A stretch of 64,000 nt of DNA from Membranipora membranacea (taxonomy: Eukaryota > Bryozoa > Gymnolaemata > Cheilostomatida > Membraniporidae), in assembly GCA_914767715.1 (NCBI GenBank), contig OU612069.1:12583387-12647386 (forward strand). The letters are read 5' to 3'. Shown here in pieces: positions 21,708 through 49,156 of the stretch (within the stretch, counting starts at the first letter, position 1; every line of letters starts with the position of its first letter). The position numbers were made by a program, and so were the translations under genes. A model generated the notes under the pieces. The model ran no database searches. It saw only the letters and a list, made by a program, of their open reading frames with translations, and was not told the origin of the DNA.

Positions 21708-21713
21708 TTTATT
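21708..21713 (-). promoter_or_regulatory. Poly(A) signal of SLX4
   Basis: AATAAA on the minus strand, about 24 nt beyond the SLX4 stop codon. The equivalent position after the duplicated exon in the right arm (49,181-49,186) reads AATAAC. Confidence 0.7.
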
Positions 21714-21737
21714 GAGGGTTTGAGAGTTGAACAGTAT

Positions 21738-24700
21738 CTACTGTTTCTTGGGTTGTGACACAGCTTTACTCTTCTGAGCAGGTTTCTTACATCTTCTGGA
21801 CTGATCCTGTTTATTCTGCACTGGTATACACTACAATATAAACATAAGTTGTCTTCATTAGAGGGTCTGATTCAGGAAGGAACTTTGTGTTAGTACGCAA
21901 AAATATGCGTTCAACTTTATTTTACATCTTATTCTCTATTTACAAAGTTTTCCCCTATGACCATAAAACTCTCCAACAGAATATAGGCAATAATGGTTCA
22001 TGATGATTCTGTATTATTGGTGCAAAATTTAAGCCCTCCCACATGCATATGCAGTAAGACACAGCATTCAATATGGGTGGTCTTAATGGCTATATGGAGC
22101 TAACCAATCAAAACAACAGAGCACTAAGGCTTTCTGCAGCATTTTTGTGGTAGCCTAGCACACAAGGTGCCAATGCTTGCCACCATGGAGTTTTGTTCAC
22201 TTAACCATAGTTAGGCTTCATACAAAACATCAATACTTGTGCATCTACTAACCTGTTTAAAGCAGAAAGTTTCCAGCTGTTTTGTAGAACATTTTATTTT
22301 AGCTGATTTGATCAGATCGATTAATTCAGACCTCTGTATCATCTGTAAATAAGTCCAATTATAGTCACAGTTCAAGCGTATATAGGAGACCTCTGCCATA
22401 TCAGGTAACAGGACCATATGCTCTGATCTCTTGATAAAACTGAGAGGATAATGGGGAAAGGAGAAGCTACCATGCTGGAACTGATGGTTCATATTTGAAA
22501 CTTTTACAATCAAAGAAATATATATGAAAAGGTTATTCACGCAATCTGGAATGACAGTTATACACTAGCGCTGGACTATGTAAGCTTCAATAAACAATAT
22601 ACATGTATACTGTGTGGTAATGGTGGGATAAAAAGTGGTACACGACTATGACCATGATTATCATGTTTGCTTTTTGATGCAATCAACGAAATGGTTAGGC
22701 AGGCTCCTGGTGCCGCAAGAGTCATCCTAGTCCAAGTCCAATTGAGGGCATTTTTGATTGTTTGTTCCTGCCCCCAGCACTATCAGGTGATCAAATCCCT
22801 TTCAATGTCAGGCTAATGGTTCCAAAGAAGGATCACAAAAGTTGAGCGAAATTTAACCTGATGGTTTAAATTTTGCTTTTTTTTAGTTGCCTCCCCTGAC
22901 TAAAAGGCTGAAGAAACTTTAAATAAAAGCGAGTCAACATCAATATTCTTTGGCGAGCCAAACTAGTGTTAAAAACAAGAAGATATAACTACCTGATAAG
23001 TGAGCATTCTGTTATAGAGCTCCTTGTGACCTTGAACTAGCTGTCTCAACATCAACTCAAGGTCATCAGGAGTTATCAGTTCACTGGTATCAGTGTCCGA
23101 TTCCGAAGAACTAAAATTTAGAAAATGTAGAATCAAATGATATGCTAACATGCTAGGATTCGGGGTCTCTCACTATGTGAATGGGAAGGTGGATTTATAG
23201 GGTTAGGGGTTGGATTCTGTTTTATCAGTAAGCAAATTTCAGATAAAAATCCCTGTAGATTACCATCTACGTCTTCAATAGATAGAAATTGTGTGATTTG
23301 AAACATTACAAGATACAACACCAACCTGATAATATTTAGTTTCCAGGCAAAAATAATGAAATATAGAGGCTGTTTTTTCTATAATTAAGGGAAAACCAGT
23401 CCACGGGATTCTGATGCCAAAAAAACCAACAAAGTAAAATGTGTCACCTTCACACCTCTTGACAAGACAACCCTAAGATCTAACCAGCTTTGAATTATCA
23501 ATACCATGCCATATGTATGGAGATGGAGTAAAATCCGAATTGACTGCAGTTCAGGTCACTGCGATAGTGTAAGAGCTGCTATGGTTTGAGGGGAATATAG
23601 GCCAATTGGATCGAACAGTCTATTCCATATTAAGATGATTAATAATAGTTACATTCATATGTGATTGGGCGATATTTTTGTTAACATTTCATATAAATTA
23701 TTTTCTACAAAAAAGTTGACAATGGACCTATTCCTTAAACTTTTAAATAAAACCAAAACATGATCTTTTTCGCAACAACTGTAGCACACTAACGTAAACA
23801 GGGCTTCGGAAAATAACCATGGCTAGTCATTCCACTCCGAATACCCATATATAACAGACACAGATACAACATTTATCTTACCTTGTGTCCTCTTCATCAG
23901 GTCCTTGAGTTTGTAGCTCTTCTATATTAGCAGTTGAGATGACATCACTTCTTGTTGACACAATGTCATCTTCATCGCTACTGCTTAGAAGCTCATTGAC
24001 TTCATCCAGTAATCTGTCTATCTCTGTGTCGGCGTGACCTTCTGACCTGAGGACAGCGTGACCTTCTGACCCTCCGGCAGCTTTAGGTTGATCTGATACA
24101 GCAGTACTCTGATAAAGGGAAATATACAGGTAAAGGTATCTTTAGAAACCAAAGGCGTTACAGCGTTGAAGGAGTGAGAAAAAAGTGATTTGATACATGA
24201 TCACTTATGCTTGCTACGATTATTTTTGCAGGAATGACCTTTGATCTGCGGGCTGATGTGAAGAGGTGCATACATAAAAATAATGCCTCAATCTTGAATC
24301 AGTTCTCCCATCAAATGGATTCAATGGATATAAACTGAGCGCACCATGGTCTTTTCAAGTGACATGTCCTGTAGTTTTAAGAATTATCACAGTACAAGTA
24401 TCGTCATTTGATACTGGAAGGATAAGGAAATGTGTATTGAAATTAAAATGTTGAGCAGTCTCTGATTTTTACAGGAACTCATTGCGAAGTTAGCAGTAAT
24501 TCAAAGTTGGCAGCTTACTGTGATTGTGTGAGACATGGGTGTTACTCGAGCCACCCGCCTTGTCTCAGATTGAGCTGATGTAGAACTACTGCCCATCTGT
24601 GTGACACGAGGCACAGATTCCACATTATGTCCTACTTTGCTTGCCCCTTTCTCAGCTGCTGTTTCAGCACCTCTTTTGGCTGAGGAGGCAGACTTGGAAG

Positions 24701-27700
24701 CTTTCTTATTTTTCTCAGACAGACTGGATTTTGATTGAGTGGTAGGGCGACTGGTTGAAGGTGCAGGTAGACTTGAAGGGCGACTTGTCGTTGGTGCAGG
24801 TTTACTGGGTGTTGGTAGGACAGTCCACTCCGCGGAGGTGTCGGTCTCATATACGTGTGTCTCCTTATAGACCTGTGTGAGAGCTGCCACCATTCTCTTC
24901 CTGGACATTTTATCTCTCAATCCAAAACCTCTCAACTTTTTCTGCAATGGTCAATTTTGGTATATTCAAGCACATGGATAAGGCAATCTTATGGTACATC
25001 ATAAATAATCATTTCACTACACATTTTCTAGACTTGGTTTTGACCCCTCCGACATAACTACAGGTAGACGAAAAGCTCTTGCCCTAATAACAGCTATGTG
25101 GGTTGCCAAATACTAGGCAATGGGTTGTCTTTTATCTGATTTATTGTTGGATTTGCCCTTACCCCTAGCGGAACGTTAAAAAAATATAAATTATTTCTTT
25201 TATTAGGTAAATTCGCGCCCTTGGTATCTAAATTAAATAATCAATAAATAATCAATGGAAATCCCATTTTCATTGGGAAATCCAACTGAATCCAACTTGA
25301 ATTCAAGTTGTCTCCCTATTACCAATGAGGAGATAATTCTAAATTTCATTAGTGGCATTTTATTTTATTGGCGGTTAGCTGATTTGCTGGCAAAGTGGAT
25401 TAAACAAGATAAAACAACTCACCTTTAATAACTCATCACCCATACCCTCATAGTGAGGCATGGGAGTGAATGGACTGGGTATGAAAGCCTTGTGTGTGCC
25501 TCTCCTTTGAATACCACTGCACTGAGCAGGTGTCGACTGTACTATTGCCTCAGCACCATCTGGGAGAGCTGACGGGGTGGGGGTGAACACGTCCCAGTCA
25601 TCATCTAAGCCGTCCCATTGCTCAATTTTGGTATCTCGGTGTCCTGTGCAAGGAAGAAAAATTTATTTTGATAGATTAATATCATAGGTATTTCTTTGCA
25701 AGCGTATCTTTGTTATTGCATTCCCTAACAACACTCAATAAATAGGAACTAACAGTGCTGAAAACATCAAAATAGACATTCATCAAATTCAAATGATTCC
25801 TTTCCGTGAATTACTAAAATAGTCAGGCAGACAGACAATTAATCATTTTCATTTGCTTTTGCCTTTACCTTTTTTTATGCTACACTTTTTGCAAAAAAAA
25901 ATCAACAACCTGTAAGCAATACATTAGTCTCACCTTCCTGAACCTCTTCAGTAGAGGACTGAACAGGTGGGAACAAATCTACAGTCGGCTCCTGAGCGGG
26001 CTTCACTGTAACTTTGTCTACTGATGAAAGAGGTTTGACCGTATCTTGAGTGAGGTCGTCTGTAAGGTCAAGCTCAGAGTCACTGTTTGTCAGATCCACA
26101 TCTGCATCTATCATATTAAGGAAGTCCATGTGAACACATGAAATAAGAATGGACAACATCATATTACCCACTGACAAGATGATATAGTTTTGTTTTTCTC
26201 GGAGGTTATCGCCAAATCATTGTCGAGAACTCTTGGAGTGTATTATTTCGGATTCCCTTGTCCAGCTAGGGTGAATGGCCCACAACAGCCAAGTGTAGGC
26301 ATTTAATCCCTGGTGAGAATAGCAACCCAGCAGCTCACTTACCATGACCCTGACATTGAAGGATGCTGTCAAAGTGTGCAATGCTTGATGTCAAACACTA
26401 ATTACCACAATATGGCAGCGTGTTGATATGTTGTAACAGTTGAGAATTAAATACTTATATTAAAACTCATCAGCCGCTCTGATTATCGTAATCATTAGCT
26501 AGAGAATTGAAATAACACCACCAAAGTGTTTGAATTTTGAGTCCTAGCCGCTTTACCTAGCCTAGCAAAGTCTAACATTTCTCTTCTTCAATTGGCTACA
26601 AGTTCAGAAGCTACTATAGCTGACCCTTGTAAAACTTTTTTCAAGCAACTTGCCTGAGTATTAGAAGGTTGTTACTGGGACGTCGATCAATGCATAACCA
26701 AAAAGCTGCCAGATTTGTAGCTTTATTCAGATCCTGACACAAAGTTCTATACTGATCACATATCTGCAAAAATAGCCACACTATGTATTTTACAACTGTT
26801 CTATTATTCATATGAATGGTGAAACTCACCAGGTTTAACAGTAGTTTGTCCCGCTGATAAATCACCATCGTTACCCTCGTGGTTAAGAGTGCTCAAGCTC
26901 AAATTATCTCCTCCTGTATCTACCTCTGCAGGCTCATAATTATCTCCCCTGGTATGTGTGGCTAGCTTATCAGTGTCAGAGGTCACATTGGTAGCAGCAG
27001 CAGTGTCATAAGTAGGTATGTGAGTCGGTGTGTCAGGTGTCAGCAGGTCCACCACATGACCTGCAGATAAATGGTGAAAATTATGAGTAAGGAGTGTTTT
27101 TCAATTACCAGACTTAAACACTACCCAAAGACCAAGGTGTGCTCACTGTGACATCATAGTGTAGGGGATGAGAGTTGCCTTCCCTTATGGGATGCCCATT
27201 TTCCACCATGCAATGGCATAAGCCAAGTAGAGCATTGAATCTTTTTACCACGCAAATCTTACAAAATTTTCTCATAAGTAACTGCCTGACTATAAACATG
27301 TAATAGTCTTTGGGTAGTCTTTAGCGGCAAGGTGTTGGTGTGGTGGGGTTATGGTATGTTTTGAGATAATAATATAGAGAGTCGGGAGGCTGTCATATGG
27401 TGCAGGTTCAACTTCTCAAAAAATTGTGCACACTTATGGGCCCAACAATCAAATTAAAAAACCCTAGCATAATTTATGGCATTTCTATATGTGTGAATAC
27501 ATTCATAGGCCTATGAAGACAAAAGCAGATAGAGAAGATTGGTCGAACTTTGGTATAGAAGAGATGAAACCCACTGGAATAGCACAAGACACACAAAAAA
27601 AAAGAGTCTAGGAATAGTACACATAATCAGCATCTCCGATTCAATGGTTCATTTCTCCAATTTCGATAGTAAGTAGGGAAATATTTTAACATGGCTGTCA

Positions 27701-30700
27701 CAATAAAGGTACATTAACACAGCAGATTTTTCTGACAGGTTTTTTTTCAGATCATACATCATTATAATTTTATAAATATTATTATATATGCTATCATAGA
27801 GAGCAACGAAAGAGCGGAGTGTTGAAACATTGTCAGAAAGCGCTGCTCTTTGGTTGTTCGCAATGATAGCTTAGATATAAAAAATCATACCTAGAAATCT
27901 GGCCAAATATCTGTCAGAAAAGCCGGCAGTATAAATGCACCTTAAACCATCGCTGCCACACAGGCAAATGTGTGCTTATTGAATTATAATATTATGACGC
28001 TGTAATCTCAGCATTGTCACCTAATGGACAAACAATTTTCACAAACTGATCGTCAAAATCAGGATATGAAATTAATTATCGTCGTAATCATCTATGTAGT
28101 GATCGGCTTACTAGTGAACACTTTTGACGTCATCACCAGTGCGTTAATATCATACCCTGATTCTGAAAATAAGTTTGTGCAAATTATTTGCCCGTTAAGG
28201 GATAATTCTGAGAGTAAAGCCTCAATTAGTTATCTTGGAGCTCTACTGAATCGATGAGCACGAATTTAGTAGTTTAAGCATCATCTCAAAAACTGCCGAT
28301 TAACTTTATTTGTATTGATTTTTTAGAATAATTCCATTCAACCTCTCAATTTACCAGCTGCACTCACCATCTGGAGATGTTGGACGCTTGTTCTCAGCCA
28401 CAAGGTTAATAACATCAGAACCCCTCTCCTGGTCTAAATTTAATCCAAGAGGATCTGCTCCTATTGATAAGTGAGGAAGGTCACCACTACCAGGCTGTGC
28501 TTTTCCTTTCTTCCCAGGAGTTGTAGCACAGGGTGACTTGACAGAAGCTGCAGGTGGCCTCTTTGGACTACCTGCAGGCCGACGTGTCGCGTTTATATCA
28601 TAGACTGTCAATTCAAAAGTATCATCAATTGAGAAGGAAGATGTCCATGGTTTCTGAGGAACAAGCTGTTCTGCTTGCGTTTCAGTTTCATTGCTTGGTT
28701 TTTCTGGGTTATCAGTTGTTTTATTAGTATATACATTGAGGCTTAGTACATCACTGATAGTTATAGAATCAGACTCCTGGTCCACTATGTCCCTGTCAAG
28801 ATCTCCTTCTTTGACTGCAAGATCTGAAGAGATCGGTGCATCATCTCCTCCAGTAGCACAATGATCATCTACTGTGTGACCATCTTGTGGATTAAAATCT
28901 AGATCATCATGGGGTTGACCTGCAACATCAGGCTCTTTATCCGCAGCTGATGGCGATGGTGCCTCAGGCTTCTTGTCTGTTTTACTGGGTCCTCTATCTC
29001 TGTAAGATGATGGTATCTTTTGAGGCACACCGATAACTGATTGGTCCTTGTGTGATTGGCAATCAGTGGTCGGTTGTTTGCTAGTCTCAATTCCATACAA
29101 TTGTTCATTATGAGGAGCACACATACTCCCGCAGAGGTCTGGGACAGCTGCTGGTGTGACCATATTGATCATCTTCTCCATATTCTGTAGCTGATTACTA
29201 GCGGAGGCCATGCTGAGTGAGGCATTCATACCAAACACAGGCGCTGAAATGTCTGAAGCGAAATGGTTTGAAGTATTCACAATGGCCTGAGACTCGATAT
29301 TTCTACACATCATACCACCTGCATCCGAGGAGCGCATGGTGGGCGGCATGAAACTGAACAGTGAGTTAGGATGTGTGTGATGACTGGGAATATGCTGCAA
29401 TGTAGGCTGGGTACCTCGTGCGACCTTGGGGCTAGGTGATGTTGACAGGGTTGTACCCCTGTCTACTGATTGGCCTGCTGGCGATAGCGCAGATTTCCGG
29501 GGCCGCCCTCTACCTCGTCCAGTGCCTCGACCACGAGGTCTACCCCTCCTATTTACGGAACCATAGCTGTGTCCGGTTAGGCTGTTATCGGTAAACTTGT
29601 GGATATTATAGTCAATTTCCTTTCCTTGTGCATTGACAGGAAGTTTATTCCCTTTCAGCCAAGTTGTATTGTTACAAGGGTCAGATTGTACAGCAGCGCC
29701 TACTGTTGGTTCCTCTGCTGAAGTGCTGCAATTGGCTGCACAAGGAATCGGGTCAAGAGTTAGTTCGACTTTCACTTCTTTTAGTGTCACATTCGCATTG
29801 TCTGCTGTTGCTGTTGGGAGGAGTTTCCTGGGTCTACCTCGGCGGCGGCGGTCCTCTTTGGGAGAAGGCGAGCAATCTGGTTTTATAGATGAGATATTGT
29901 CGGCGCCGATGAGGTTTCTGGTTCTTGTGATATTCTGCAGTTCAGCAGCTGTTTGATTGGATGTTTTTATTTCTGTTGGGTCCTGAGGATTTTTGCGTGG
30001 TCTTCCTCTCTTTCTCCTCATCAGTGATGAGTTCGAATGGAGTGTCAGCTTCGTAAGCAAACTCGGTCTATCTGTGACGGAGCTACTACTGCTCTCATGA
30101 GAGTTATGCCTCGTTTCTCTGCCCTGGAGAATCTTTGCCCTGGCATTTCCTTTTGACTTTCTGGTCTCCAAAGGAGTTGAGGTCATCTGTAAAATAATCC
30201 AAAAAGGTTGAGGATAAATTCAGAAAATATTTTCGATCTCCAACTGCCTGCCTCAATCAAATTATCTGGAAATAAAACAAGAATTGCGAATGAGCTCCAA
30301 ACATTCGGGTCGGATAAATACGCTATCCATTACACAAGCCTGATACAATCACATGAAGCAGTCATTTCTCAGGCAGACCGCATTGGAATGGTATTCTGAT
30401 TGATAACGGAGACCATGACTCACTGTAAACTTATTCCTGTCGAGTTTCTCTGTGATGACTTTGGCCTTGAGACCAGGATTTGGGTTTTGTTGAGTTGAAG
30501 TATCATGTCTGTCTCTCGAATATGGAGGAGATCTTAAATTCCTGACATTTGTCGTGTCTCTCTGACCTGAATCGCCAGAGGCATCTTGGATGAACCTAAA
30601 GCGTATAGATACACATGAGTATGAGACATGACAAACTGCGCATCGAGCCATTAATCAAATAATGATATCCAACTCTTAACTATCCCATCTGTGTGAAAAC

Positions 30701-33700
30701 CAGTCATTGACATGACATTTTTATATACATGGTAGTCTGAAGAATTTAATATACAGTCCTCCTCCCCCCCCCCCCCCTCAGAGCCAAACCTCCAAAACTC
30801 TAGTGAACAATAAGCGCGTACCTATGGATAGAGCTAGCTATAGTCTGTAACACTTGAGTTGGTATACTGTTTAGTACTGAGCCGTCTCCATTGTATAGAT
30901 ACTTGAGCCAGGCTGAGACATGACCATACGCCAGTTCTGACATGTCAATCATATCCTCACTCAATAATCGCTACCAACAAAAACGTCAACAATAAGTTTG
31001 TGAATTTGTGGTACTTCAGATATAACACCCTCTCTCGTGTACCATGATAATGAAGAGAGATATAAAACATCGTCGGCATGTTTTTTGAGTTAGCGGAATT
31101 TCAGATATAACACCTCTCTCATGTAACATAACATTAAACTGACACAAATAAAATTGTAATATATTTATCACTACAAAAAAAATTAAACGATAAGTAGTTT
31201 GTTTATCAGAAGAATTAAGTTTAACATACAACCTCAGCTGTAATGTAAGCTCTTATGTGGAATTAACCAGACAAAAGTGAGCTGTAAGCTCATCTAGCGT
31301 GTATTCCTGGTCTAGCCTGAGATGAACACCCATAGTGCACACACAAACCTGATGTAGTTGTGGATATCTTGAAGCTAGCACAACTTTATGTATGGATATA
31401 TCACACATGTTAGTCTTGATAACAGCGTCTGAGAAATCAGGGTTTGTAAGTAACCGACACATGTAATCACCGGAGCCCAGAAATCTCTGTAACCAAGCGA
31501 GTAAAAGTACACCAGGCGTGACAAAATACAAGGATAATTTATGAGCTTATAAGATTTGGATGAACATAAGAAATATTCAATATGCTGGAAAGATCTTTTG
31601 TGGCGTATAACTTTCAGGATACTTTATACAAGTGTTAGGCTATCCAACATTCACAAGGAACTTAACCAGCTCGCATGCTGAGAAATTTTGGCATAGTACA
31701 AAATGCTGTAGAATTATTTCCTTTATGTCAAAGAGGGGGCAACTCCAGAGGCATAAGTCCGTACCGTATTAATGAATGACCACCCCTCTAATGTGACAAA
31801 AAACACAAATGACATGCATCATCAGAATTAAAACACAACTGCAAGCAACAGAAAAATTTGATACAGCCACCAAATAGGCTACATAGACCCTAGAGGAGCG
31901 AAGAATTAGGAGGAAATGATCATCATTTTGTACAGGCCTGAAAAGTCGAATGCATGGCTGGCTTAAACTCAAACCTTTACCAGCTAAATTTGTGCTAGCC
32001 AACAATAAGTCTCCCAAACTAGCTAAAAATAAGTCTCTCAAACTTACTAACAATAAGTCTCTCAAACTAGCCCAACAAATGATTGGGCTGATTAGGATTA
32101 TCAAAGTATCTCATTAAATATGAAACCACTATGAGTTTTTCTTACCAGAGCTTTCTCTCTTTCAGTACAAGCTATGCTTGATGTGTCATCTAACGGTCTA
32201 ATAGTGCTCTGGTCAGCCTCAATATTTTTTTTTTGTGCGACAGTAGGGGAGGCTCGTGCACACACCGTCTTGTTAGCTACTGCGGACATCTGAGTACTGG
32301 TCACGCGTGACGCTCCAGTCATGATTCTTCTGTTAGCCTGTGTTCTCTCAGCTGAATGATCGGGTGTCTCAGGTACCACAACTTCAGGATCATCACCTGA
32401 CTGATGCCCCAAGTCTATAAATACAAGCCAAGACATAAATGAAAACAAACTAGATTAATAAATATTAGCTATCGTTTGGTCTTGCTAGTTTGGATGTGGC
32501 TCCATGTTAGCTGGCACCTCTCTCCAATAGCTAAGGTGGAGTCTATATCAAGGAATGAGGTTGAGTTAATCAGCCACACATTTAAACCAATTCTAACCTG
32601 TGTGAAATGACAAACTTCTCCTACTGCTTACAAACATGACGCAGTGAACACGTAAGGCCCCTCTTTGTATGATGTCACAGAATGAGAATGAGAGAAGTGT
32701 TTGCTTTCATCAATAACGTTCGGATTTGTCGCCACAGGCAACACACAACATCTGACACTTTTCTGTGCCCTTTTAAATATGAGTTGTCTCCTCCTGGAGA
32801 GCACAAAGTGATCATGGTTTATCATCTAGCCTGTGCTAAATCTGCGGAAATAACATCCATTGCTCTCACAATTCGCAATAGTTTCACTAACCGTTCATGT
32901 TTATACCGAGGTTTTTTAGCTCTGTGGAGGATCGAGACGTCCCTTTTGGCCTTCCTGGTTTCCTTTTATAAATCTGAGTACCCGATATGTTGACTGCATT
33001 TATAGCCTGAGTACTTATAGAAGTGTTCCCTGACCTTCTGGACACAGAGGAGCGCATCGTTGTGAGCTACAGAATAGTTTTATACCAGGGTCAAAGGCTA
33101 AGGTTACAAGGTGAAATGACTTTAAACTAATTGCGATTTCATCGCTTTGCCTAGCACTCTATCACTCACAGGTAAGAGAATTTGACTCGGGGATACTAGG
33201 TACAATTTGAACACCCTCGATTGAATCAAACTATTCAACAGATCACATTACAATTGGTAAACCGTTATGATAATTTCAGATTCATAACAAACCTTTTTGG
33301 AGAGTGATTTGCCCGCTGTCAACCTCTGAGTTGTTATTTTAGGGTGATCTTTAGCTGATACTGAAGGGCGTCCTCTAGTGGCGGGCCGCCGAGTTGTTTC
33401 CTCTTGAGTTGAGGGGGAGTTAAGTCTCGATCTCCATCTCTTAACCTGATGATGAGATATTTTAGACAGCGATAAGGGAAACCTGTGCAGTGTTATGGTT
33501 TGGACGAATAGCCTTGGCAACTTTTTTAGTCACATCATAGCAATTTGTTCAAAATCCTCACTATTTTCACATAGGTTCATCAAACAGTAAGCTATTTGGA
33601 TGGCAGACCTATGGCAGATCTAGTTTACTGAGCTAGGAACGATCACATCTTGGTAGCTTTTTATTCAAACACCTATTTGAGCCATCGACTTTTATTTCAG

Positions 33701-34795
33701 ATGTGATTTTATGTGTTTGCAACAACGCTGTTGCAAGAGAATGATGAACTTTCAAGAATATGGTCGATACAAATCAGCGTACCCGGTTTAGCATCGGAGA
33801 GGATTATACTTAGAGGCTGGCCAAATTTACATAAAAAGATATAGACCAGGTTTGATCCGGGTTGCCTGCATGCGGTAGTTAGTGCTTAACTGTAGTGGTT
33901 GGGGCGAATAGAAATGCCAGTAAACAGGACCAAACTTGATCTACAAAAGACCTGGCAAACTGGTTAACATCACTACAATCATATGGTAGCATATACTCAC
34001 TCTCTGAAATGCAGCCGATTCCTCTTGCCGACCATCAGATACAGATGGTGATTCAGCGGGCGGTGTTTTCCGTTTCCTGTTTAGTGCTGCGGTTACCTCA
34101 TTAACTGGCTTAAACTTGAACTTTCCTTTTCGAGCTGGCCGAGCAGATATATTCTGTTCTACTAAAGACAATACATGTGAGGGAAATAAGACAAAAATTG
34201 AAAGTTGCCTAGCAAAACCTCTCGGTTGTTGCCAACTGCCATAGCAGAAGGTTATACAACTTCACAAGAGTATGCGTTGAAGTCTTCTGGTGTCCACCGC
34301 AGTTGCTACGTGTGTAAGCGCTAGTTTTGACTGTTTTTCTGACAACCCAAGTGAAATATTAGGAGCCTCGTGAGTTAAATCAATCTTACCAGCTTTCAAT
34401 TAATATTTCGGGAGTCTGTTGTAGCGTTTGCTTTATATGATAATTTTAGCAGCAACCAGCAAGAAAAATGAAATCAACAAATCTTTCAACATACCATCAG
34501 GTGATTTGCTTCGCACACTTTGCGGTTGTGGTGGATTCCGAGGCGGTTGTGTTGGTTTCCGAGGCCGATCTTCATCATCATCATCACTATCTGACAGTTG
34601 AATGATCTCAAGAGGTTTGGCTTTAGCTGCCTTCTTCATCTTTTCAGGATTAGGCGAGCTCGGCTCGTTTTTGTAAGCGAGGCATTGTGCTATATGTCGA
34701 TGGTGATCGATGGCTTTCATATAAATACCCTTACACCCTTTGCACTCGTATATACGATAGCTACGACTCATCAAATCTTCCATTGATGATGACAT
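21738..34795 (-). CDS. SLX4: SLX4 structure-specific endonuclease scaffold, 17 exons, 1,637 aa
   Basis: SLX4 is the nuclear scaffold that docks SLX1, MUS81-EME1 and XPF-ERCC1 for Holliday-junction and crosslink processing. Coding exons, 5' to 3': 34795-34495, 34161-34001, 33445-33293, 33066-32892, 32414-32146, 31486-31349, 30970-30822, 30595-30424, 30186-28368, 27060-26830, 26107-25934, 25643-25423, 24941-24519, 24108-23882, 23110-22993, 22342-22253, 21830-21738; all phases agree. Seen: one UBZ4 finger (C18, C21, H34, C38); a SUMO-interacting motif at 64-67 before acidic residues and another near 1192; BTB domain 354-449; SAP-like MUS81-docking segment about 1305-1350 (T-P-M-P-H-Y, then G-F-G-L); C-terminal SLX1-binding domain 1539-1637 (L-Y-N-R-M-L-T-Y-Q) ending in a lysine-rich tail. 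AT-hook GRP cores lie at 244, 568, 624, 722 and 734. The XPF-binding segment is not obvious. Human SLX4 is 1,834 aa with two UBZ4 fingers. The exon 4 donor (GTTAGT) is the least certain boundary. Confidence 0.94.
27705..27946. mobile_element. MITE in SLX4 intron 9
   Basis: About 34-bp inverted ends: AAGGTACATTAACACAGCAG at the left and, at the right, the complement of AAGGTGCATTTATACTGCCG, each running on to CTGACAG. The middle holds a second fold (GCTATCAT against ATGATAGC). About 240 bp, no coding capacity. Confidence 0.75.
31487..32145. other. SLX4 intron 5, no separate gene
   Basis: At 31,980-32,070 three near-identical copies of an AAATAAGTCTCTCAAACTA-type motif occur in tandem. Nothing else was recognised. 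Confidence 0.5.
33842..33943. mobile_element. MITE, TAGATCAAG family, in SLX4 intron 2
   Basis: The ends TAGACCAGGTTTGATCC and GGACCAAACTTGATCTA are inverted. Flanking 9-mers AAAAAGATA and CAAAAGACC agree at 6 of 9 positions, compatible with an old 9-bp target duplication. Confidence 0.65.
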
Positions 34796-35643
34796 ATTGA
34801 GTATCTTGCAGATTACACTTACTCATTCAGGTTTAGTGAATCTTGCAGTTTGATGTGGATTACCCTTTCTCAAGGTGATCAGGTTATCTGGTTTACTTAT
34901 TGTTAAGGTTTGATGTTGATAACACTTTCTTGGTGTGGTCAGTTGACTATGGGTTTATGCAGATAACCCTTGTACGATGTGATGACTTTGAAGACTATTT
35001 ACAGTTTGACAAGGTCTATTTGAAATATACACCCTTTCCAAAAATTAGGATTACTTCAGTGGATTAGTTATGGCACTGTTATATGGATCCTTCCTTGATT
35101 TAATGTTTGATATAATATATTGATAGATAATTTGATCACGCTACAGACTGATTTCATCACACTACATCACATGTCCTAGAAAATAACTACACTTTAGCTA
35201 TATCTTATTCCCTCACTAGCAGTTATATTGTGTGTGGTGAGTAATATTATCAGAGCGTATGAGAACTCCAACTCTGAAGTGAACAAGGATCTGAAAACAA
35301 AAATTGATATCCTAACAACATCAGCACGAGAGCCTAAAATACATTCAATCATCTGGGGTTATATTCTTCATTCACAAGTAGTAATAAGATCACTTCCTTA
35401 GAAAACTTTGCAATTATGATCACTGTCTGAGTTGATTGAGGATATAGGCCAACAACCCATCTTTGCAGCTACAACACTAGCCAGGGTTCCCAAGCTCGTC
35501 CCAATTTTATTATTTGACCTTCTTTGGAGTTACTTTCTTATGTGAGATTATAATTGTCATAACCAGTGTATATGTGTCAGAATTGTTTATTTCAGGACGC
35601 AGCGAAAATGATAGTGACTTACCTGTAAGTATTTGTTATGAAG
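34796..35643. other. Intergenic: SLX4 5' side
   Basis: 848 bp between the SLX4 start codon and the stop of the upstream same-strand gene. It must hold the SLX4 promoter unless there are 5' non-coding exons. Short repeated GGTTATCTGGTTTA-like phrases occur at 34,850-34,990. No element was recognised. Confidence 0.5.
35586..35591 (-). promoter_or_regulatory. Poly(A) signal of the 112-aa membrane protein gene
   Basis: AATAAA on the minus strand about 53 nt past the stop codon at 35,644. Confidence 0.6.
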
Positions 35644-39329: not shown

Positions 39330-41928
39330 TCAGCAATCTGGAAGATAGAAGAAATACCAGTGGATAAAGGGTAGATGAGAACTAAGCTATAGTTGTGATG
39401 CGCTATAAAGACAAGGTAACAACTCCATGATTTAATTAAGGGTGATATATATAGATCCCTAGAAAGGTATGGTAAATATTAGTTTGTTATTATTATTCCA
39501 TTGAGTAATCATCTTTGTAGTTGCGTTTTGGAGTTACCACCCTTTCTTTACTGTGGTTAAATAAAGTCACCTTTCTTGATGAGCCTGAAGTTGTGTATGG
39601 TGCAGAAAGGAGACACAAAGGCCATATCTGGATCAGCAAAGTGGTCACTGACTGCTTCAATCTGACCGTGGCTGTTGATTCCGAGGATGCATCCTGTATC
39701 GCTCCCAGCATACGTCTCAATACTACAACGAATTTACCAAATCAGATTATAAAATAACATCAGGTAAGTGGTGTCAAAAGTCACAATGCATTGTGGGCTA
39801 TTTTTCAATGTGTACCCTTTTAACTTGATCAGCAAAATAAAGATGAATATATATATATATATATATATATACTTTCATTATATTGTGTGCGTATGTGCCG
39901 GTGTACTCCCTAACGTTCAATGACAATCGGTTGCTCTTCCTTTTGACTTACCCAACGACAGATCTCTGATTCGGTGACTGACTAATTGTCAACACTTCGT
40001 TGATAGTATTGTTCCGGCTTGTAACCTGAATAAATACAAACCAACAGGATAGAATACTGCCTAGGCAATGTGTTGGGTCTGATTGGCTGGGATGAAAGCC
40101 AATGCCGGGTCAGGTGGTACTGAAAGCATTGGAGTTTCCCCCCCCCATCTACCGACGGTCTGAAGGCAAATAGGCCTGTCAGTAGAGGAGGGCAATTCCA
40201 CGCTGTTAAAACAGATCAAACATGACCTAAATTTAACAAAAGTTTAACTGTAGGTACAGAATCAAGTGGTCGGACAATAAATGGCAAGGTACCAGCTATG
40301 TACTATCACCATCACACAATATGCATTGCGGGATAGCTTTCAACATTCATCGCTGGTGCAATAATGCAGGGAGAGTTTTCAGACCCCCGGTCATTATAGA
40401 GATTCCTTGGCATTAACTTACCTTTAGTGTCTGACCACAAGATGTGGTGAGCCATACATTGTCTCCAAGAACTCTGCGAGCATTCACCAATTCCCACTTA
40501 AAGGAATTACTCTGTTTTATATCAAACAGTTCTACTCCATCTCTTGTGGGTCTAACCACCATATCTGTGAATATTGACAGCTGCTGATAACGACCGCTTG
40601 AAATTTGTCTATTTTACTGTTTATATGACATTGATTATTATAATTGAAAGTCTCATGGTAGCCTACATATGAACATAAATTGATTTGGGGCAGGTAGGTT
40701 TAGATTCTGCAGGCAGAAACTGGGGCAGAGTTTGAACACTTTAACTAGGAAATAGTGGGGGGGGGGGCAGTTTGAAATTCTCCGGGTTATATCTCAAAAT
40801 TAGTAATATGGAAAATAACCCACACTCTGCTTCATAGATGTAAATTGACTTTGATGAATGTGAGATACATGGGCATTGGCCAATGTGTTAGCTCTTGGTA
40901 AATTGGATGTTGGGTCAATAATCTGTGCCAACAAAATGGTACCACAGGCTTGGCATTGAAAACATTAAAATTAATAGACAACAAAAAATCAATACTTGGT
41001 GAATAAATGGCGGTAGACATACCCACACAGAACGCACAGGGTTGAGTAGTCACGTTATGGTAAACTACATGGACCTTTAGAGGCCGATAATCTAAAGTAG
41101 TAATAGAGTAACACTCCGCTGCCAAACTGCCAACTAGTGTGAACAGAAGAACTGACTAAAATATAAATCAAAACTTCTTTTAAGAGGAGGCAAATCCCTT
41201 CACAACATGTAGAACGTAAGAATCGACAGGCTCTGCCCCCCCCCCCCCTACAGCAAAGTTCATCAACACAGGCTAGTTATTTCACTGACACTGACAGGAT
41301 ACATAGGAGGAATGTGTATCTCTCGTGCTTTTCAGGTTGAGACTTTAAGTCTCTGCAATCACCTCCTGAGACTATCCTGGGCAGGCTGTCGGGGTGGGTG
41401 GGGTAGCCACCCGACATCCTTCCCAGGCTATCCTAAGGCAATATGACAGATTGAAGATAGTTGTATCCCAGTCATAACCAGCTGTGAACATGGATTCTCT
41501 CAACTTAACAAGTTGTTAGCATCTGATATGAAGTCTATGGGCGCTTTGTGTAGCCGAGAGAGATACAATGAAATAGTATTTTTTTCGAACACACCAAAAC
41601 TAGCTGCACAATTTGATGTGTAAACGTAGCCTATAGTATGATATCAGTTTCAATATTATTTTGTACTGGTCCAACCTCAGTCTTAGCCAAATATATTTGG
41701 AGTTGCGCCCTACACTTTTTTTGTTATAGCTACCTTTATATAGTAGACTGTAAGATTTTCCATTTCACACTTTCAAAGTCAGTTGTCTCTTTACGCTGAT
41801 ATCACTTCTCTATATCCCTCTTCACAGATGATACGCTCGCTCTGTAGGATATGGCCTGGGATCAATACCTGCTCTTGTTTTTATAGCTATATCTCAGCTA
41901 CCTGTGCCAACAATGCACCCATGACCAT
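39330..41928 (-). CDS. Secreted cysteine-containing protein, 178 aa, unknown
   Basis: Six exons: 41928-41902, 41155-41023, 40564-40422, 40025-39952, 39722-39571, 39337-39330. Lengths 27, 133, 143, 74, 152 and 8 (with stop) keep frame. Exon 1 starts M-V-M-G-A-L-L-A-Q and joins S-V-L-L-F-T-L-V-G-S-L-A-A-E-C in exon 2, a convincing signal peptide with cleavage near residue 22. An upstream in-frame ATG would need a different donor phase, so this start is preferred. The mature part has about seven cysteines (including C-x2-C) and a G-C-I-L-G-I-N-S-H-G segment, and reads like a small extracellular beta-rich domain. No family is recognised. The last exon is tiny; reading through donor 39,570 instead ends a few codons later. 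Confidence 0.78.
39847..39871. repeat. (AT)n microsatellite
   Basis: Twenty-five bases of pure alternating AT inside an intron of the 178-aa gene. Confidence 0.9.
40075..40225. mobile_element. Degraded MITE in intron of the 178-aa gene
   Basis: Contains the CAGTAGAGGAGGGCAATTCC core shared with the foldback at 51,733-51,793 and an end resembling the TAGATCAAG family (AGATCAAAC). A C8 run lies inside. The borders are approximate. Confidence 0.4.
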
Positions 41929-42444
41929 TAAGGAAGTTTGATGACATGCGATTAGTCATGCCTGGGCTTGGTAAGTCTTTTTACCATGAAATATCTTCCT
42001 CTTAAAATGGAGGATAGGTATATATTGTATCATGTCTTTTAATGGACCCGTTTTGCATAAATACCACATTTTTACTCATGTTTGAGTCATATACACGTTA
42101 TTTATCAAGGAAGTGCATAGCGCTAAGGCTGGGAATTGGGATGATATTGGCATTTTTGCTATTCACCAAAAACTCCATTGGTCATCTCATATCTCCTACA
42201 ACTCATCAGGAGATTGCTGTCACGATTCCAATGCATTTGTTGAGAGCGGGATGAGGGAATTCGCCAAGACTTCGTGACCTGGGAATTCCTCGTATGCAAA
42301 AACCACAGAACAAAATTATTTCCCATTATCATACGTTTATTGAATGTGTGGTTTGTCAGTTGTTGGTCATAGAATGGTGATTAGTTTGACTGCTTCCAGA
42401 AAGATCATGGGAATCCCCAAAAATTATTGAGTTCCCCAGTCAAA

Positions 42445-42556
42445 GGGTAAAAGCGCCGACTTGTTCCTTTGTAATAAAACTGATTATTGATAGTTTTACA
42501 TTTATTATTAATAATCCAGTTTATTTCCGTGGAACAAGTTGGCGCTTTACCTAATA
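42445..42556. mobile_element. Small foldback element
   Basis: GGTAAAAGCGCCGACTTGTT at the left pairs with AACAAGTTGGCGCTTTACC at the right, and the pairing continues towards the middle (ACTGATTATT with AATAATCCAGT). About 110 bp, non-coding. Confidence 0.75.
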
Positions 42557-43138
42557 TAGGTTGATGTTTATTTCCTCCCTGTGACGAGTCCATCCTTATT
42601 GTGGCAGCATTGATGAGTGTGGAAAAACAACACCTCCATAGTGTGATATGCAATACAGTGTACTATACAACTCAGCTTATACTCAGCTATAAATATTTAT
42701 TAGCATATACTTTCAATCCGCCATTTTTCCAATAATCTTTCATATTGAGAAAACCATAAATTTCGATTATTATCATGTCATGTTCAGTGGAGGGGGCAGG
42801 GAACCTATGAAAATAATAAACCTTAGGCTATGCAATATACGTAGGTCCTCATGACCCCATCCTTTGCTATGGTGAGTAACCTTGCATAACTATTTCTCGA
42901 TCAGATAAGACCAGAACAAATTTAACAGTGTTAAAATAAATCATGATGGACTATACTTTATTCTGGAAACTGGATTTCACTGTTCCCTAAAATTAATACA
43001 AAAGTAATAGATTCCTTTCAGTTTTTTCAATTGTTTTGTTACGTATCACCAGGTCTGTGAATTCACGAATTGTTCAATTGTGCATCACTATTGAAAATCA
43101 CTGAATTTTTGAGGTAGGAATTGTCATCCGAACGTTCT

Positions 43139-43400
43139 ATAGTTAGATTTGCCAGTGATCCATTAGTCCCAAGAAACCTCAACTAATTTTCATAGTAACA
43201 AATGTCAATTTAGATAGAGTCATCCATTGGTACCACAAAAACCGCAACAAATTTCCATATTTAGATTTGTCAAGTTTTAGAACAGTCCCAAAAACTTAGC
43301 TTATTTCCATAGTAAGAATAATCAAGATTATACAATCATAAATAAGTCCCTAATTTCCGTAGTAAGATTTGTTAGTATTATACAGCCATGGATAAGTTAC
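43139..43400. repeat. Degenerate tandem repeat, unit about 60-80 bp
   Basis: The phrase CCATAGTAAGATTTGTCA and variants recurs about four times, each followed by a TACAGYCATGGATAAGT-like or TAGTCCCAARAA-like phrase. Confidence 0.6.
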
Positions 43401-43422
43401 AGCGCTGAGAGAGTAGAGTTGA

Positions 43423-46400
43423 TTAGACACACTGCTGAGTGGCTGAGATATAAGTTTTATGATTGGCACACAGTTCCAACAGAGATAGAGAAGCTACTGC
43501 TCCCTCATCATTCTTCTTAGGATACAAGACTCTACAAACAGGAAACGGAAATCGTTGTTTGTAAATTTTGCTAAATAATCACAATGTGTCTTAGTGATCA
43601 TCACACTGACATTGATACAAGACTATAGCATGTGTATCTCTGATCGTTAGAGTCAATTTAGTATGAGTACCTGTCATGTTTCTGCCACTAATTAATTTAA
43701 ATTTACACTTAAAAAGCCCGTATGGAACTTCCATTTCCTATGTATAAATCTTTGAATGCTCTGTTGGTTGGGGCTTGGAGCTCAAACCACCCCACCAGGT
43801 ATTACTTTATCTCCTCAAGGAATCCTGGATACCCTAACATTCGTTCTAAACTACCTGGAGTTTATGCACTGATATTATCGACTCTCTCCAGGCCCGTAGT
43901 TCTAGGGGAGGCAGAGAGGCACTGCCTCCCCTAGAAAACTAAATATCGTGGCCTAAAAACACTATAATTGAATAATCTACGTCAGAATCAGTCCCTCTGG
44001 GACTACCATTCGCTTTATAGACCTCAAATTTTGCAGGGAGGAGCTTACAGCACCCCTACTGGTGATGCCTCAGCCTTTTGCCTCCCCTACCATTTCTTCT
44101 AAACTACGGCCCTGCCCTCTTAAATGCTAACCCTGACCCAAATAAATTTTTAGTTTGTTGGGCATTTAGCTTATTAAGAATGAACTCACTGTGCTCCTGA
44201 CTCAGTCTTAGCAAGCATGTAGAATGCTGATCTCCTTTTCAAAAGAGCTTCAGTCAGTCTCTGCTCAACATCACTTGGTATCTTCACAACTTCTCTGCCC
44301 AGAGATGGGGCGGTGGGCCATGATATTGTCATCGTCCCTTTGCTGCATGATATCACTGGAGAGAATTCTTTTGAACTCTCACAGTCTTAAAAAAAGAAAT
44401 GCACGTGTGTTGATAGGGGGGGGGGGGGTCAATGGTGGAGTAGATCTAGATCAAGGTTCATCCTTTAACCTGCATTTCGAGTTGTCCCCTCCACTGATCA
44501 ATCGAGGAAGAGAGGTACAACTCCAAATGTCGGCAAATGAATCAAACTTGATCTAGATTAGATCATCTCTAATACAGATGATGATTCGGGACACATCATA
44601 TGAATGAAAGAACACAAAGACATGATGCTAAGTGTTATTCTGTTAAAGTAACTAATCATCAAAATATTTATTTTTCGCGGTATTTGGTTGAAATGTTTTG
44701 GAACTTAAAAATGGTTGAAATCTGGGAGTCATAGCCAAACCTTCTCTCAACTCAATTTATTTAAATAACAGGTTGACTAATATTCTAGCTCACATTATAT
44801 TACTAACGAATTAGCCAAATAGCGAAGCTAAAAACAGTGTGACCGCCTATGTCCAGTTTAGGTCCTCAGGCAGCTGCAAGGCGAATTTGACCCATTACAT
44901 TATCAAATACTCAAATTGAATGATTGATAATGTAATGACACTAACTCGCATAAAAACCATCTGCGCAATTTGACTAGCCTATGTAATGTGATGTATCTGG
45001 TAAGGTGGCAGTAATACTACCAAAGATAGCAACCTTGTATGAGACATGTTTACAAAAGTTCAAGTCTCTGGATGCAATATATCAACTTTTTTTATTTAAC
45101 CTTAACAGTTGCCTCCCCATTAGTCAATGTACCAGACTGCACGTCACAGTCAAGGCCTTAGGAATTAAGTCTAATCTGGGGATTGCCTACCTGAATCACA
45201 CAGTCTGTCAACAATCCCATAGTTCCTTTCGGCTAAAATCTCCATGTAATCACGAGTTACGTTGTTATCTAACAGAGAGCAATCAAGTGTATATTGTGCG
45301 GTGTACTGTATAACTCGTCTAAAATGCTCCTCTACAAAAGAAAACAATGCTCAAAGAGTTGTAATTTATTTGATGGGGCGGCGGTTGGCAAAAAGATTAA
45401 AATTGTTATTGTGTTTGGTACGTTAATGCCAATGATGAATTTTAGTTTGAAAGGTAGTAAGCGTGGGTGTGGGCCATCATAATGACCAGATGCTTCATAG
45501 CTTATCATCACAGAGTAAGGATAAACAGAGGGGACACTTCAATGATCGTTATAGTGCCTGCGGTTTTTATCCACTGGGGGAAATTCATCAATCTGGCCAC
45601 CTGCCAATTTCAAAATATATATAAGTTACAGTTGAGTTTTGTCATGCAGACATAGCCACCTTTGATAGGTCATAATTCATTCTGTATTTATCCTAAAGAC
45701 TGATTTCTAACGTTTCTGAAATGTCCAATCTTCGAGCTATACACCATATTATTGTCATATTTTGGTAGGATACATAGGCTATGAGTAATCCAGGTTTTTA
45801 AAATGAGTTTTATCATATAGATTTACATAGGGCTTAGGTCAATGCACGGACATTTCCTAATTTTGATGACCAGCCGTCTATCAATTGTCAAATGTAAATC
45901 TATATGACAAAACTCATTTCAAAAACCTGGATTACTCTTAGCCTATGAATCCTAGCAAAAAATGACGATAATATGGTGTATAGCTTGAAGCTTGGACATT
46001 CCAACAAAGTTGGAAATCAGTCTTTAGGATAAATACAGAATGAATTATGGCCCATCAAAGGTAGGGATGTCTGCAAGAAAAATGCCATTATAACATATAG
46101 AGATAATGAGTTTTTGGCATCCAGCTGTGCACAATTTTCCCCCAATCAAAAACCGCAGGCACTATAACTATCATGGAACTGTCCGCTCTGTATATCCTTA
46201 CTCTGTGTTGTCATCAAGACAAAATCTATTGAATAACGCATTAGATAGAGCTCAATCATAGCAGCAGACAATTATCTCATAAATATTCCTCTTTCACACA
46301 GCATCACGCTATAATTCTGAAAATTTCAATCCTTCAATTAACGTCAAGGCAAAATGGCATTCTTTTAAAAGGTTTAGCATAGAATTTTGAAAACTTATGA

Positions 46401-48397
46401 GCCACAGACAATTATCACATACACATTCCTCTTCACATGTCATCACCTTATAACTATGAAGTTTTAAGCTTGCTAAGACATTATGGTTGATTAAGGTTGA
46501 TTAAAATCAGATGTCATATCACTCGCCCATCCCGAGGCATGGGCGGCAAAATATTATTGCCTTATTGGCGAGGTCGCAATATCTGCGCCAATTTGCTCTC
46601 AGTTTGCAGGCAGGTTGGAGCACACCTGGGGGCCAACCAATCCCCAGTAGAAGATGGACTGCAGTGGGATTCAAACCCGCGACCTTCAACACTTGCATGT
46701 TGAAGTTCGGCGCTCTAACCAACTGAGCCACCTCCTACTCCGTAACATGACAAACATTCTAAGGACCACAAATTATGCAATTGACTATCGAAAGCTCAAA
46801 CCTTTGACTTTTAAATATAAGCAAACCTTGTAGTTTTCTGATGTAACCTCCAATTTCTCCAATGAGAACGTCTCCCTCTGGTGACATCATCATAGAGTGA
46901 GGATAGGGGGTCTCGCAATCTACACTGTCACCATCATTGTGACCTCTAACCCCTGAGCAGACAGAGGCAACTGTCAGGTCATCAAGGTCAAGTATCCTCA
47001 GCTTGTTGTTGTCTTGATCAGCAACAAGAAGACGATTCTCATTTAGAGTGAGAATCGCTCGAGGTTGGCGAAAGAGGGCCTGGTTGAACGTCCCGTCTCG
47101 GAATCCACTTTTGCCCACATCACCAGCTAGAAGAGTGAGGGTGAGGTTGGAGAGATCTAGCCTGCTGATGTGATTCTTGTTAGACACAAACACAATGTTC
47201 GGATCAATGGCGTCCCAGGTGAGAGTTACAGGTCTGTCAAGCTCGTCTGATTGGATAAGGGTTGTCACATGGCCATCTTCATCTACAGAGCGTATAGCAT
47301 TATTGTTCCTGTCGAGAACAAGTAGTCCATTTTTGCCTGGCCTCCTGTCCTTTGTCACAGCTGCAGGGTAGGCAAACTTACTCAACTTGCCGTCATACAG
47401 TCCAGAGTTCTCAGACCCACAAAGTCCAGAGTATGTTGAAGTCTTCCTTGTGATTCTATTGATGAGTCGAAGACAATGGTTGTACAAATCTGCTGCCACA
47501 ATATGAGTGGTGTTTAGCTGGGTGAAACCAAGAATAGTAGAAAACTCTGCGGCTTCTGCGATGCCATCATTGTAGCTGTAGTAACTAGAGAACTCGGAGC
47601 CAGCTATCAGTGTAGTTGTCGCTCCGTCAGTAGATCTCAGTGTTTTTCCATCCGTGTAGATCACATGACCCGTTTTATAGATGTCAGCTTCGAGGTGGTA
47701 AATCCAGCGAGCGCTCTTAATGTGCTGATACGTGCTCATGTCACCCAACTCATTCCTACAAAACATGAGAGAAAAGAATATATATCATTTGGAAAGCAAG
47801 AACAAATCTGTAGGAGGATGTTGATTCAAATTGCAAGGTTATGGCTTGATCCAAAGACTGAGAAATAGAGATATCTTAGGGCGCGGCCGCCATAATCTGC
47901 GACATTTTGCTCAATTAGTCAATTAGTCAATTAGTCGGTAGACTGCAGCAGGATTCGAACCCTGGACCTCAATCACCTATATAGTACAGGCCAGGTAATC
48001 TAACCATCCATGCTCCCATCAATCAGGGTCAGCATTTTTAGTTGCTTAGTATTGAACATTGAACATAGATGTTTGCGCTTAAATTATCATCTAGTAACAA
48101 TTTCCAGTAAATAAACGCAGTAGACAATGAGTAGACAACTTACCAGTTGGTGAAGTTCTGAGCAGAGCTCATCCCACCTCCCAGTATCACTGATACCCAT
48201 AGCAGTAAAACCTACAAATCAAACAAGAGATATCAAGCACAGGAGTAAAGACCAATCACACAAACACACATTACAGTGCTTCCATTATTACTGGGGGTTA
48301 TTGAACCATTCAGAAGAATAGGCACACCTGATGTCCAAGATTTTTGAACACCTAACAAGAAACTGAAACCATACACAGACAATCTTACCTTTGTCAT
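43423..48397 (-). CDS. Secreted NHL-repeat protein, 483 aa, 6 exons
   Basis: Exons: 48397-48389, 48211-48144, 47755-46827, 45331-45191, 44385-44190, 43531-43423; lengths 9, 68, 929, 141, 196 and 109 keep frame to TAA. M-T-K from exon 1 plus V-L-L-L-W-V-S-V-I-L in exon 2 make a signal peptide, so the start is firm. The big exon 3 encodes a run of NHL/YWTD-type beta-propeller blades, with repeats such as G-F-R-D-G-T-F-N-Q-A-x-F-R-Q-P and L-L-V-A-D-Q-D-N-N-K-L-R. The C-terminal 150 residues have scattered cysteines and no family I recognise. The product is probably extracellular; its ligand is unknown. Intron 3 holds a 700-bp foldback element and a SINE, intron 4 two MITEs. It is the first gene of the same-strand set and its 5' end faces the inner end of the right arm. 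Confidence 0.88.
43890..44114. mobile_element. MITE with CAGGGCCGTAG-type ends, hAT-like, in NHL gene intron
   Basis: The left end CCAGGCCCGTAGTTCTAGGG and the right end complement CAGGGCCGTAGTTTAGAAG form inverted termini, followed inward by GGGGAGGCA on each side. About 225 bp. The termini resemble non-autonomous hAT elements; family inferred. Confidence 0.65.
44447..44555. mobile_element. MITE, TAGATCAAG family, 9-bp target duplication
   Basis: Inverted ends of about 42 bp begin TAGATCAAGGTTCATCC and end in GATTCATTTGCC-type sequence before GATCTA. Flanking 9-mers GAGTAGATC (44,438-44,446) and GATTAGATC (44,556-44,564) match at 8 of 9. Confidence 0.82.
45508..46210. mobile_element. 700-bp foldback element in NHL gene intron 3
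   Basis: The two halves are inverted copies over about 310 bp each, around a loop at about 45,830-45,895. Examples: CACAGAGTAAGGATA at the left edge and TATCCTTACTCTGTG at the right; AAATCTATATGACAAAACTC near 45,894 against GAGTTTTATCATATAGATTT near 45,804. Identity is about 80-85% by eye. No coding capacity. Confidence 0.9.
46506..46740 (-). mobile_element. tRNA-derived SINE, family A, in NHL gene
   Basis: Minus strand: GGAGGTGGCTCAGTTGGTTA, B-box GGGTTTGAATCCC, then the family body with ACCTGCCTGCAAACTGAG and a GCCGCCCATGCCTCGGGATG end. The insert between A and B boxes rules out a tRNA gene. It ends about 87 bp downstream of the exon 3 donor. Confidence 0.88.
47845..48018 (-). mobile_element. 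Degraded SINE, family A
   Basis: The minus strand carries CCAGGGTTCGAATCCTGCTG (B-box), a tandem TTGACTAA insert, and the GGCGGCCGCGCC...CTCAGTC tail found in the 19,535 and 51,366 copies. It lies in NHL gene intron 2. Confidence 0.75.
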
Positions 48398-48920
48398 TTT
48401 GTTGTGATCTGAAGCAAGCTTCGGAGCAACCTATGAGTTTCAAAAATCAATTCAAAATGACACCACCTAGCATTTGCTGAATCCTATTTCACACAACTTT
48501 ATCTATTTTAATGAGTGTGTCTGTCAATCAGGTTTACAGAAGATTTAGGTTTCTTTCATGTTATCTTAATCTCCAGGTAAACAGAGTTAGCAGACCTTGG
48601 TCAACATTGCACACCTTGGTTATCAATGATGAATTCGGTCTAACTTTATGGCCTATCTTATGATCATGCACTCAGTGCATGTGTTCCATACCATTGCCTG
48701 GTGTTCTGATCGTGTGCAGTCTCATCATAGCGTTTTGACCTGTTTTGTCATGTATAGATGTACTGGTTAGGTCTAATATTTTTTAATATCAGCAGACTCA
48801 GCACAATTCTTACTGAGTATTTCGCTCAATAAGGTTCACTTTCACCAATCTATAATGGGATTTTGTCGATGTAATCTGCGACTGATGTAATGCACTATTT
48901 TATACTCATATTCTGTGGAA
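48398..48920. other. NHL gene upstream region to the arm boundary
   Basis: About 520 bp between the NHL start codon and the inner end of the right arm. It should contain the NHL promoter unless 5' exons lie inside the arm. No core element was identified. Confidence 0.45.
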
Positions 48921-49063
48921 GATTTGTATGTTCATAGAGAAAAACTTTGTAAACCAAATAAAAATTAATATGATAAATAAAATCTCATCCATATCTTGGT
49001 GTACTAATATGTAGTTCTTTCCTGAATCGGACGCTTTCATAGTCCCTTGTGGTTATATTGTAG

Positions 49064-49156
49064 AGTATACCAGTGCAAAACAAACAAGATCAGTCCAGAA
49101 GACGTAAGAAACCTAATCAGAAGGTCAAAGCTGCGTCACAACATAAGAAACAGTAG
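49064..49156 (+). pseudogene. Second copy of the SLX4 terminal exon, open frame
   Basis: A 93-nt block, the same length as SLX4 exon 17 (21,738-21,830), preceded by the same TTATATTGTAG acceptor and ended by TAG. In exon phase 0 it encodes 30 residues. Six differ from the resident exon: C to S at the first position, then C to R, A to N, S to V, V to A and P to H. About 13 nucleotide differences, no indel, no stop. No upstream SLX4 exon accompanies it on this strand, so it is orphaned here. It could become the working exon if the core were inverted. The downstream poly(A) hexamer is AATAAC. Confidence 0.9.

Follow-up and report, generated by a model that had tools for sequence, protein, structure and literature searches.

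A spare terminal exon of SLX4 in a bryozoan inverted repeat: most likely a leftover of a many-copy cluster with traded 3' ends

The locus considered here raises the question of why the terminal exon of SLX4 (FANCP), a scaffold gene, should occur twice in one stretch of DNA, once in each arm of an inverted repeat. The stretch is a 64,000-nucleotide window of the genome of the bryozoan Membranipora membranacea (C5:12583387-12647386), taken from a 339-Mb assembly of 18 contigs that is the source of all the gene copies described here. An initial annotation of this DNA proposed that the palindrome flips and that the second exon copy makes such an inversion survivable for the gene. Our analysis indicates that the spare exon is most likely a leftover of a many-copy SLX4 cluster whose members have traded 3' ends, not a purpose-built safety copy.

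The SLX4 gene and its second terminal exon

The SLX4 gene of the window (21738..34795, minus strand) was modelled by hand from splice sites and reading frame rather than from transcripts, and in this model it comprises 17 coding exons. All 16 introns have a GT donor and an AG acceptor, and the frame of 1632 codons is uninterrupted, giving a complete open gene model. Searches against Pfam placed in this one protein a BTB domain that passes the cut-off narrowly (E 5.2e-4) and a C-terminal Slx4 domain (PF09494, E 1.2e-7, above the cut-off), which identifies it as SLX4. Residues 1180-1632 match two proteins, from Lingula anatina and Pecten maximus, that are themselves annotated with BTB and Slx4 domains; residues 1-500 found no homologue among 7997 scored candidates, and a comparison with solved structures returned nothing better than E 0.6. 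The Slx4 Pfam model had no match when run genome-wide, but as it had none in any of 14 control genomes either, this negative is uninformative. The domain match stops at the second residue of exon 17 (residue 497 of a 525-residue fragment in which exon 17 starts at 496), so that exon 17 mostly encodes the basic tail that follows the domain.

Exon 17 (21738..21830, minus strand) is separated by intron 16 (21831..22252) from exon 16 (22253..22342) and lies within the left arm of the inverted repeat (9213..21984), as delimited by self-BLAST and an inverted-repeat search. The right arm (48908..63881), delimited by self-BLAST and by comparison with a sister unit described below, may extend beyond the end of the window. 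Both arms are patchy, with ~70-89% identity by segment in self-BLAST, and their inner ends fall within intron 16, at a distance upstream of exon 17 that measures 154 bp in the left arm and 156 bp in the right. The inverted repeats thus contain part of the gene, and the initial annotation was correct in the coordinates, acceptor, frame and stop that it gave for exon 17 in the left arm and for its 93-nt outward-pointing copy in the right arm. This orphan copy (49064..49156, plus strand) matches exon 17 at 80 of 93 bases with no gap and keeps a TTGTAG acceptor, the frame and the TAG stop, and the six residue changes attributed to it (C/S, C/R, A/N, S/V, V/A and P/H) are confirmed. Upstream of it stands a truncated 156-bp remnant of intron 16 (48908..49063, plus strand), which shares 116 of 151 aligned bases with the left arm and is 72% identical in the comparison with intron 16. 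The match between the arms across the 140-bp exon-17 segment is far beyond chance (E 7.9e-42), and exon 17 is the only one of the exons tested (9-17) to have a second match in the window.

SLX4 copies on C5 and their combinations of body and 3' end

Exon 17 is far from confined to these two places. A genome search with the right-arm exon as query, in which match counts are lower bounds, returned at least 15 exon-17 matches (15 of 15 scored candidates), every one of them on C5, where they span ~2.6 Mb (12.115-14.685 Mb) and occur on both strands; these 15 genomic matches rule out the right-arm exon as a unique two-copy feature. The suggestion that the repeats duplicate just the part of the gene needed to survive inversion is not supported, since the copy belongs, in truncated form, to a set of 15, and the case carries a caution that two repeat copies within one window can appear purposeful though they are 2 of 15. 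We compared ~10 kb at each of the 13 exon-17 places outside the window and found exon 16 preceding exon 17 in 13 of 15 cases (the left copy of the window and 12 of the 13 outside places). The two exceptions, in the right arm of the window and at C5:12155729, are identical over 140 bp, and in both the sequence breaks off within intron 16.

The cluster contains at least 14 SLX4 gene bodies, a query of exons 15-16 with intron 15 having produced 15 matches that include one body split in two. Among them is a body at C5:14479261 (L024, C5:14477200-14480400) that has lineage 1 sequence (see below) in exons 15-16 and leads into a class B flank with exon 17 lost. The cluster is also the only place with matches to exon 9 (20 matched stretches among 24 candidates). 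Of the 14 bodies, two, that of the window and one at C5:12.115 Mb, were found to be uninterrupted over exons 9-17, and exons 1-8 were examined in these two genes; the remaining bodies carry frameshifts, stops, lost splice sites or missing exons. Near L017 and L019 there is no exon 9 match, and exon 9 of the body at C5:14479261 is broken. The best reading of the array is that it is largely pseudogenised. Intron 16 was also considered as a dispersed mobile element and ruled out, with 15 of 15 scored matches falling in the cluster in a search that skips very common words.

Two classes can be told apart in the 700 bp that follow exon 17, with identities of ~62-67% between classes and ~94-100% within them. 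Class A comprises five of the 15 members, namely the left copy of the window (WINL; flank at 21038..21737), L012, L014, L015 and L020, and class B comprises seven (L009, L011, L013, L016, L017, L019 and L021). The two orphans are diverged members of class B (83-87%), the flank in the window (49157..49856, plus strand) being ~83-87% identical to other class B flanks and ~62-64% identical to those of class A. The flank of L018 is A-like for ~100 bp from the stop and then departs, with class A states at eight of nine scored sites. Just upstream, the same genes divide differently, into two body lineages whose identity, measured either from exon 15 to exon 16 or over intron 15, is ~71-78%. Eight of the 13 attached copies are in lineage 1 and five in lineage 2 (scored from exon 15 to exon 16). 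All four combinations of body and flank occur among these 13 copies: five are 1A, three 1B, four 2B and one 2A. Within exon 16, 22259 is the last fixed site at which the lineages differ; the 3'-end classes begin to differ at 21751 and 21750 (a Pro versus a His codon), in the terminal part of exon 17 (21738..21751). This confines the switches to the 508 bp of intron 16 and exon 17 between 22259 and 21751. Histories upstream and downstream of this interval are accordingly incongruent, both in the combinations of diagnostic sites and in an approximately unbiased (AU) test in which a single clade of flank-B members is rejected on the body tree (p 1.4e-46).

The interval itself is more uniform than its surroundings. 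With gaps excluded, intron 16 is 95-98% identical to that of the window in 10 copies drawn from both lineages, and the lineage 2 copies L013 and L016, which are 57-87% identical to the window in introns 10-15, reach 96% in intron 16. Two further copies, L011 and L018, are mosaics: their introns 10, 11 and 13 are of lineage 1 (95-97%) and their intron 15 is of lineage 2 (73-74%). This indicates that recombination has affected the length of the gene, within which intron 16 forms a uniform zone. An AATAAA hexamer lies 24 nt after the stop in four of the five class A copies, including that of the window, and none of the seven class B copies has AATAAA or ATTAAA before position 225. To judge from these motifs, an exchange of 3' ends would also alter the polyadenylation [poly(A)] signals.

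We consider it highly probable that ectopic homologous recombination between array copies produced this pattern. In the scheme that we favor, the arms would be old duplication products, a segmental duplication would have broken off within intron 16 and left the orphan 3' end behind, and crossover or conversion between copies at intron 16-exon 17 would have swapped the tail, the poly(A) signal and the downstream DNA. The scheme presumes that the ectopic recombination took place in the germ line and that the assembly is correct. Crossover, conversion and template switching are indistinguishable from these data, and the chromosomal orientation of the flank classes did not separate inversion from direct exchange.

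The orphan exon would, under this scheme, be a remnant, and we infer that it is not used. It differs from the exon of L016 at seven positions, five of them nonsynonymous and two synonymous; five of the seven differences are private to the orphans, one is common to L012 and L014, and one is common to L017 and L019. At the first of the six residues changed relative to the window gene, it has Ser in place of a Cys that is common to all 13 attached copies and to Lingula and Pecten. In simulation, seven random substitutions left the frame open in 53% of draws, and the open frame of the orphan is thus weak evidence of use.

Several observations weigh against the exchange of 3' ends as we describe it, or against the orphan as simple debris. 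The 2A combination rests on a single copy, L018, which is B-type at 21734. The groups used in the tree tests were named after the identities had been seen, making the p-values nominal, and the converse test, with the body-1 members as a clade of the flank tree, was not rejected (p 0.053). The uniformity of intron 16 is reduced when gaps are counted, to 82% for L017 and L019 and to 89-90% for L009, L018 and L021 (82-97% across the 12 other attached copies, and 89-97% for the ten apart from L017 and L019). The ratio of nonsynonymous to synonymous substitution rates (dN/dS) relative to the window gene over exons 9-17 is 0.53 for the intact copy at C5:12.115 Mb, 0.99 for L012 and 1.06 for L020; it is also below 1 in seven of the nine broken copies (0.35-0.71), and this ratio alone therefore cannot sort live from dead copies or mark the intact copy as live. 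With seven differences in 93 bases, the orphan exon has diverged less than the DNA flanking it (binomial p 0.03 if the 14.5% rate of the flank's first 150 bp is applied, and 0.12 with the 12% rate over 366 aligned bases), and it is gap-free where the flank has 10 gap runs over those 366 aligned bases; there are hints that the exon has been constrained to some degree, part of this possibly predating orphaning. Finally, assembly sequence such as ours may contain misjoined or doubled haplotypes.

The sister unit and competing explanations

The second uninterrupted gene belongs to a sister unit (C5:12.107-12.163 Mb) that repeats the arrangement of the window, with SLX4 on the minus strand, an NHL-repeat gene on the minus strand and an orphan exon on the plus strand. 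In the sister SLX4 (C5:12114500-12130200) the full set of 17 exons is present and the frame is open over 1632 codons; its protein differs from that of the window at 27 residues, and the gene ends in class B. The window and sister SLX4 bodies differ by 1.4-2.5%, and window positions 46779-56713 are 99.8-99.9% identical to C5:12146500-12163400, seven of 9946 aligned bases being mismatched and the alignment containing a few short gaps and one insert. This insert (L010:2190-9146, C5:12148689-12155645) consists of 6957 bp of tandem-repeat DNA ~100 bp upstream of the sister's orphan exon and is absent from the window. The left arm of the sister is another matter: immediately after exon 17 its identity is 87% with the right flank of the window and 64% with the left, over the outermost 3.3 kb compared it is 88-92% identical to the right arm of the window and 78% to the left, and in a middle part of ~1.3-1.5 kb it is 84% identical to both. 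The general idea that SLX4 copies at this locus can swap ends and stay whole is supported, because the window gene and its sister differ in just that way. To this extent the initial annotation was right that SLX4 can be complete with an alternative end, as other bodies joined to alternative 3' ends and the intact sister attest; what is not supported is that the flipping of this palindrome provides it.

The main alternative for the sister pair is that the two units are haplotypes of one locus and their 3' ends are allelic. The near identity of the right parts, interrupted by one large insert, and the 1.4-2.5% divergence of the bodies would both fit alleles of a polymorphic invertebrate. A distance of ~490 kb separates the units on a single contig, however, and the SLX4 copies lying in this interval are more diverged; beside exon 17, the left arms of the two units are of different classes. 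We regard allelism as unlikely. Ectopic exchange among array copies could also be given a stronger form, in which intron 16-exon 17 is a standing exchange hub where copies in both orientations keep swapping ends while the gene stays whole. We hold this to be doubtful; if true, the locus would tolerate inversions and unequal exchange, and the window and sister would represent two living states of a gene that processes recombination intermediates.

Functional constraint on intron 16-exon 17, for instance from a splicing or regulatory element, might by itself account for the uniformity of this segment with no special exchange, and the gap-excluded identities across both lineages are what it would predict. 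Constraint does not create different combinations of body and flank, and the segment is uniform even in copies that are broken elsewhere, and we consider this explanation improbable.

The proposal that the palindrome flips in the population and that the right-arm exon then completes SLX4 fares worse and seems to us very improbable. The geometry, acceptor, frame and stop all fit, other SLX4 copies of the array have exchanged their terminal ends, and the absence of gaps and the somewhat lower divergence of the orphan exon are what a usable exon might display. A crossover between the arms, though, turns around all of the DNA between its two points. Exon 17 and its 3' flank lie inside the arm, so that a crossover further out would move them together with SLX4 and no spare would be needed; an inversion, if any occurs, would thus usually keep SLX4's own exon 17, as this layout suggests, and the claim that the copy makes inversion survivable is not supported. 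To join exon 16 to the orphan, a crossover would have to fall in just ~250 bp of the arms, within the exon or the inner 154 bp. The interval 21700-21990 contains no exact tract of at least 20 nt, while 90 of these, the longest measuring 97 nt, are shared by other parts of the arm regions. Nor is there a sign of flipping in the assembly, where the two NHL-bearing units have the same orientation and where none of the 13 attached exons is of the orphan type with its Ser. The tandem-repeat insert of the sister, so close upstream of the orphan exon, also speaks against such use. Least probable of all is that the right-arm exon is the last exon of another plus-strand transcript, for which its intact acceptor and frame would be suited: the adjacent NHL gene is on the other strand, and among the listed open frames we noticed no plus-strand gene leading into the orphan, although no gene prediction was made and short exons could be missed.

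Comparable systems and neighboring features

In three human inversions, the inverted repeats hold parts of genes (PMC3961182, PMC6748972): the first exon of AQP12A/AQP12B in HsInv0241, the 3' untranslated region (UTR) of PABPC1L2A/B in HsInv0396, and the first exon and promoter of CTRB1/CTRB2 in HsInv0030. As far as these accounts describe them, they resemble the SLX4 locus in that duplicated gene ends within repeats permit an exon or UTR to be swapped without destruction of the gene. They differ in having been genotyped in people and in having genes as both partners, whereas at SLX4 the exchange is deduced among copies of one assembly, it is the 3' end that is exchanged, and the right-arm partner is an orphan exon. 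The window also departs from the HsInv0030 type in that identity at the gene part (116/151 in the intron, 80/93 in the exon) is insufficient for crossover and in that only one orientation of the segment was observed in this assembly. Human IDS recombines with its nearby partial pseudogene IDS2/IDSP1, inverting the DNA between them and causing Hunter syndrome (PMC6982257). SLX4 is similar, on that description, in having a partial copy close by, and unlike IDS in that its copy would supply the missing exon and in that no inversion was seen in the assembly.

Two other systems invite comparison. Ampliconic palindromes of sex chromosomes combine inverted arms, multicopy genes and exchange between copies, all of which have a counterpart at the SLX4 locus, where, in contrast, the arms have diverged (~70-89%) and most copies are broken. 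Bacterial shufflons swap the C-termini of proteins by inversion and share with SLX4 the idea of interchangeable C-terminal segments; nothing that we saw at SLX4 suggests regulated switching, and no search for a site-specific recombinase or its sites was made. Literature searches at the level of listings found no published SLX4 array. The locus is of interest in that a gene that resolves recombination intermediates sits in surroundings shaped by recombination, and it offers a natural test of whether an altered basic tail and altered poly(A) signals affect SLX4 function.

The NHL-repeat gene that adjoins the orphan exon (46762..47739, minus strand) has one more genomic match, in the sister unit, and its co-amplification with SLX4 is ruled out by this total of two matches. 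At 45506-46210 is a hairpin-like element with 191-nt arms at 89% identity, which looks like a mobile element because a 97% copy of it occurs in the left arm of the sister unit. Within the right arm, a 16-bp tandem repeat (54529-54716) is present in 11.8 copies with 97% matches. Near the start of the window, positions 2554-4552 hold pieces of a retroelement, a PHD finger and an endonuclease followed by a reverse transcriptase.

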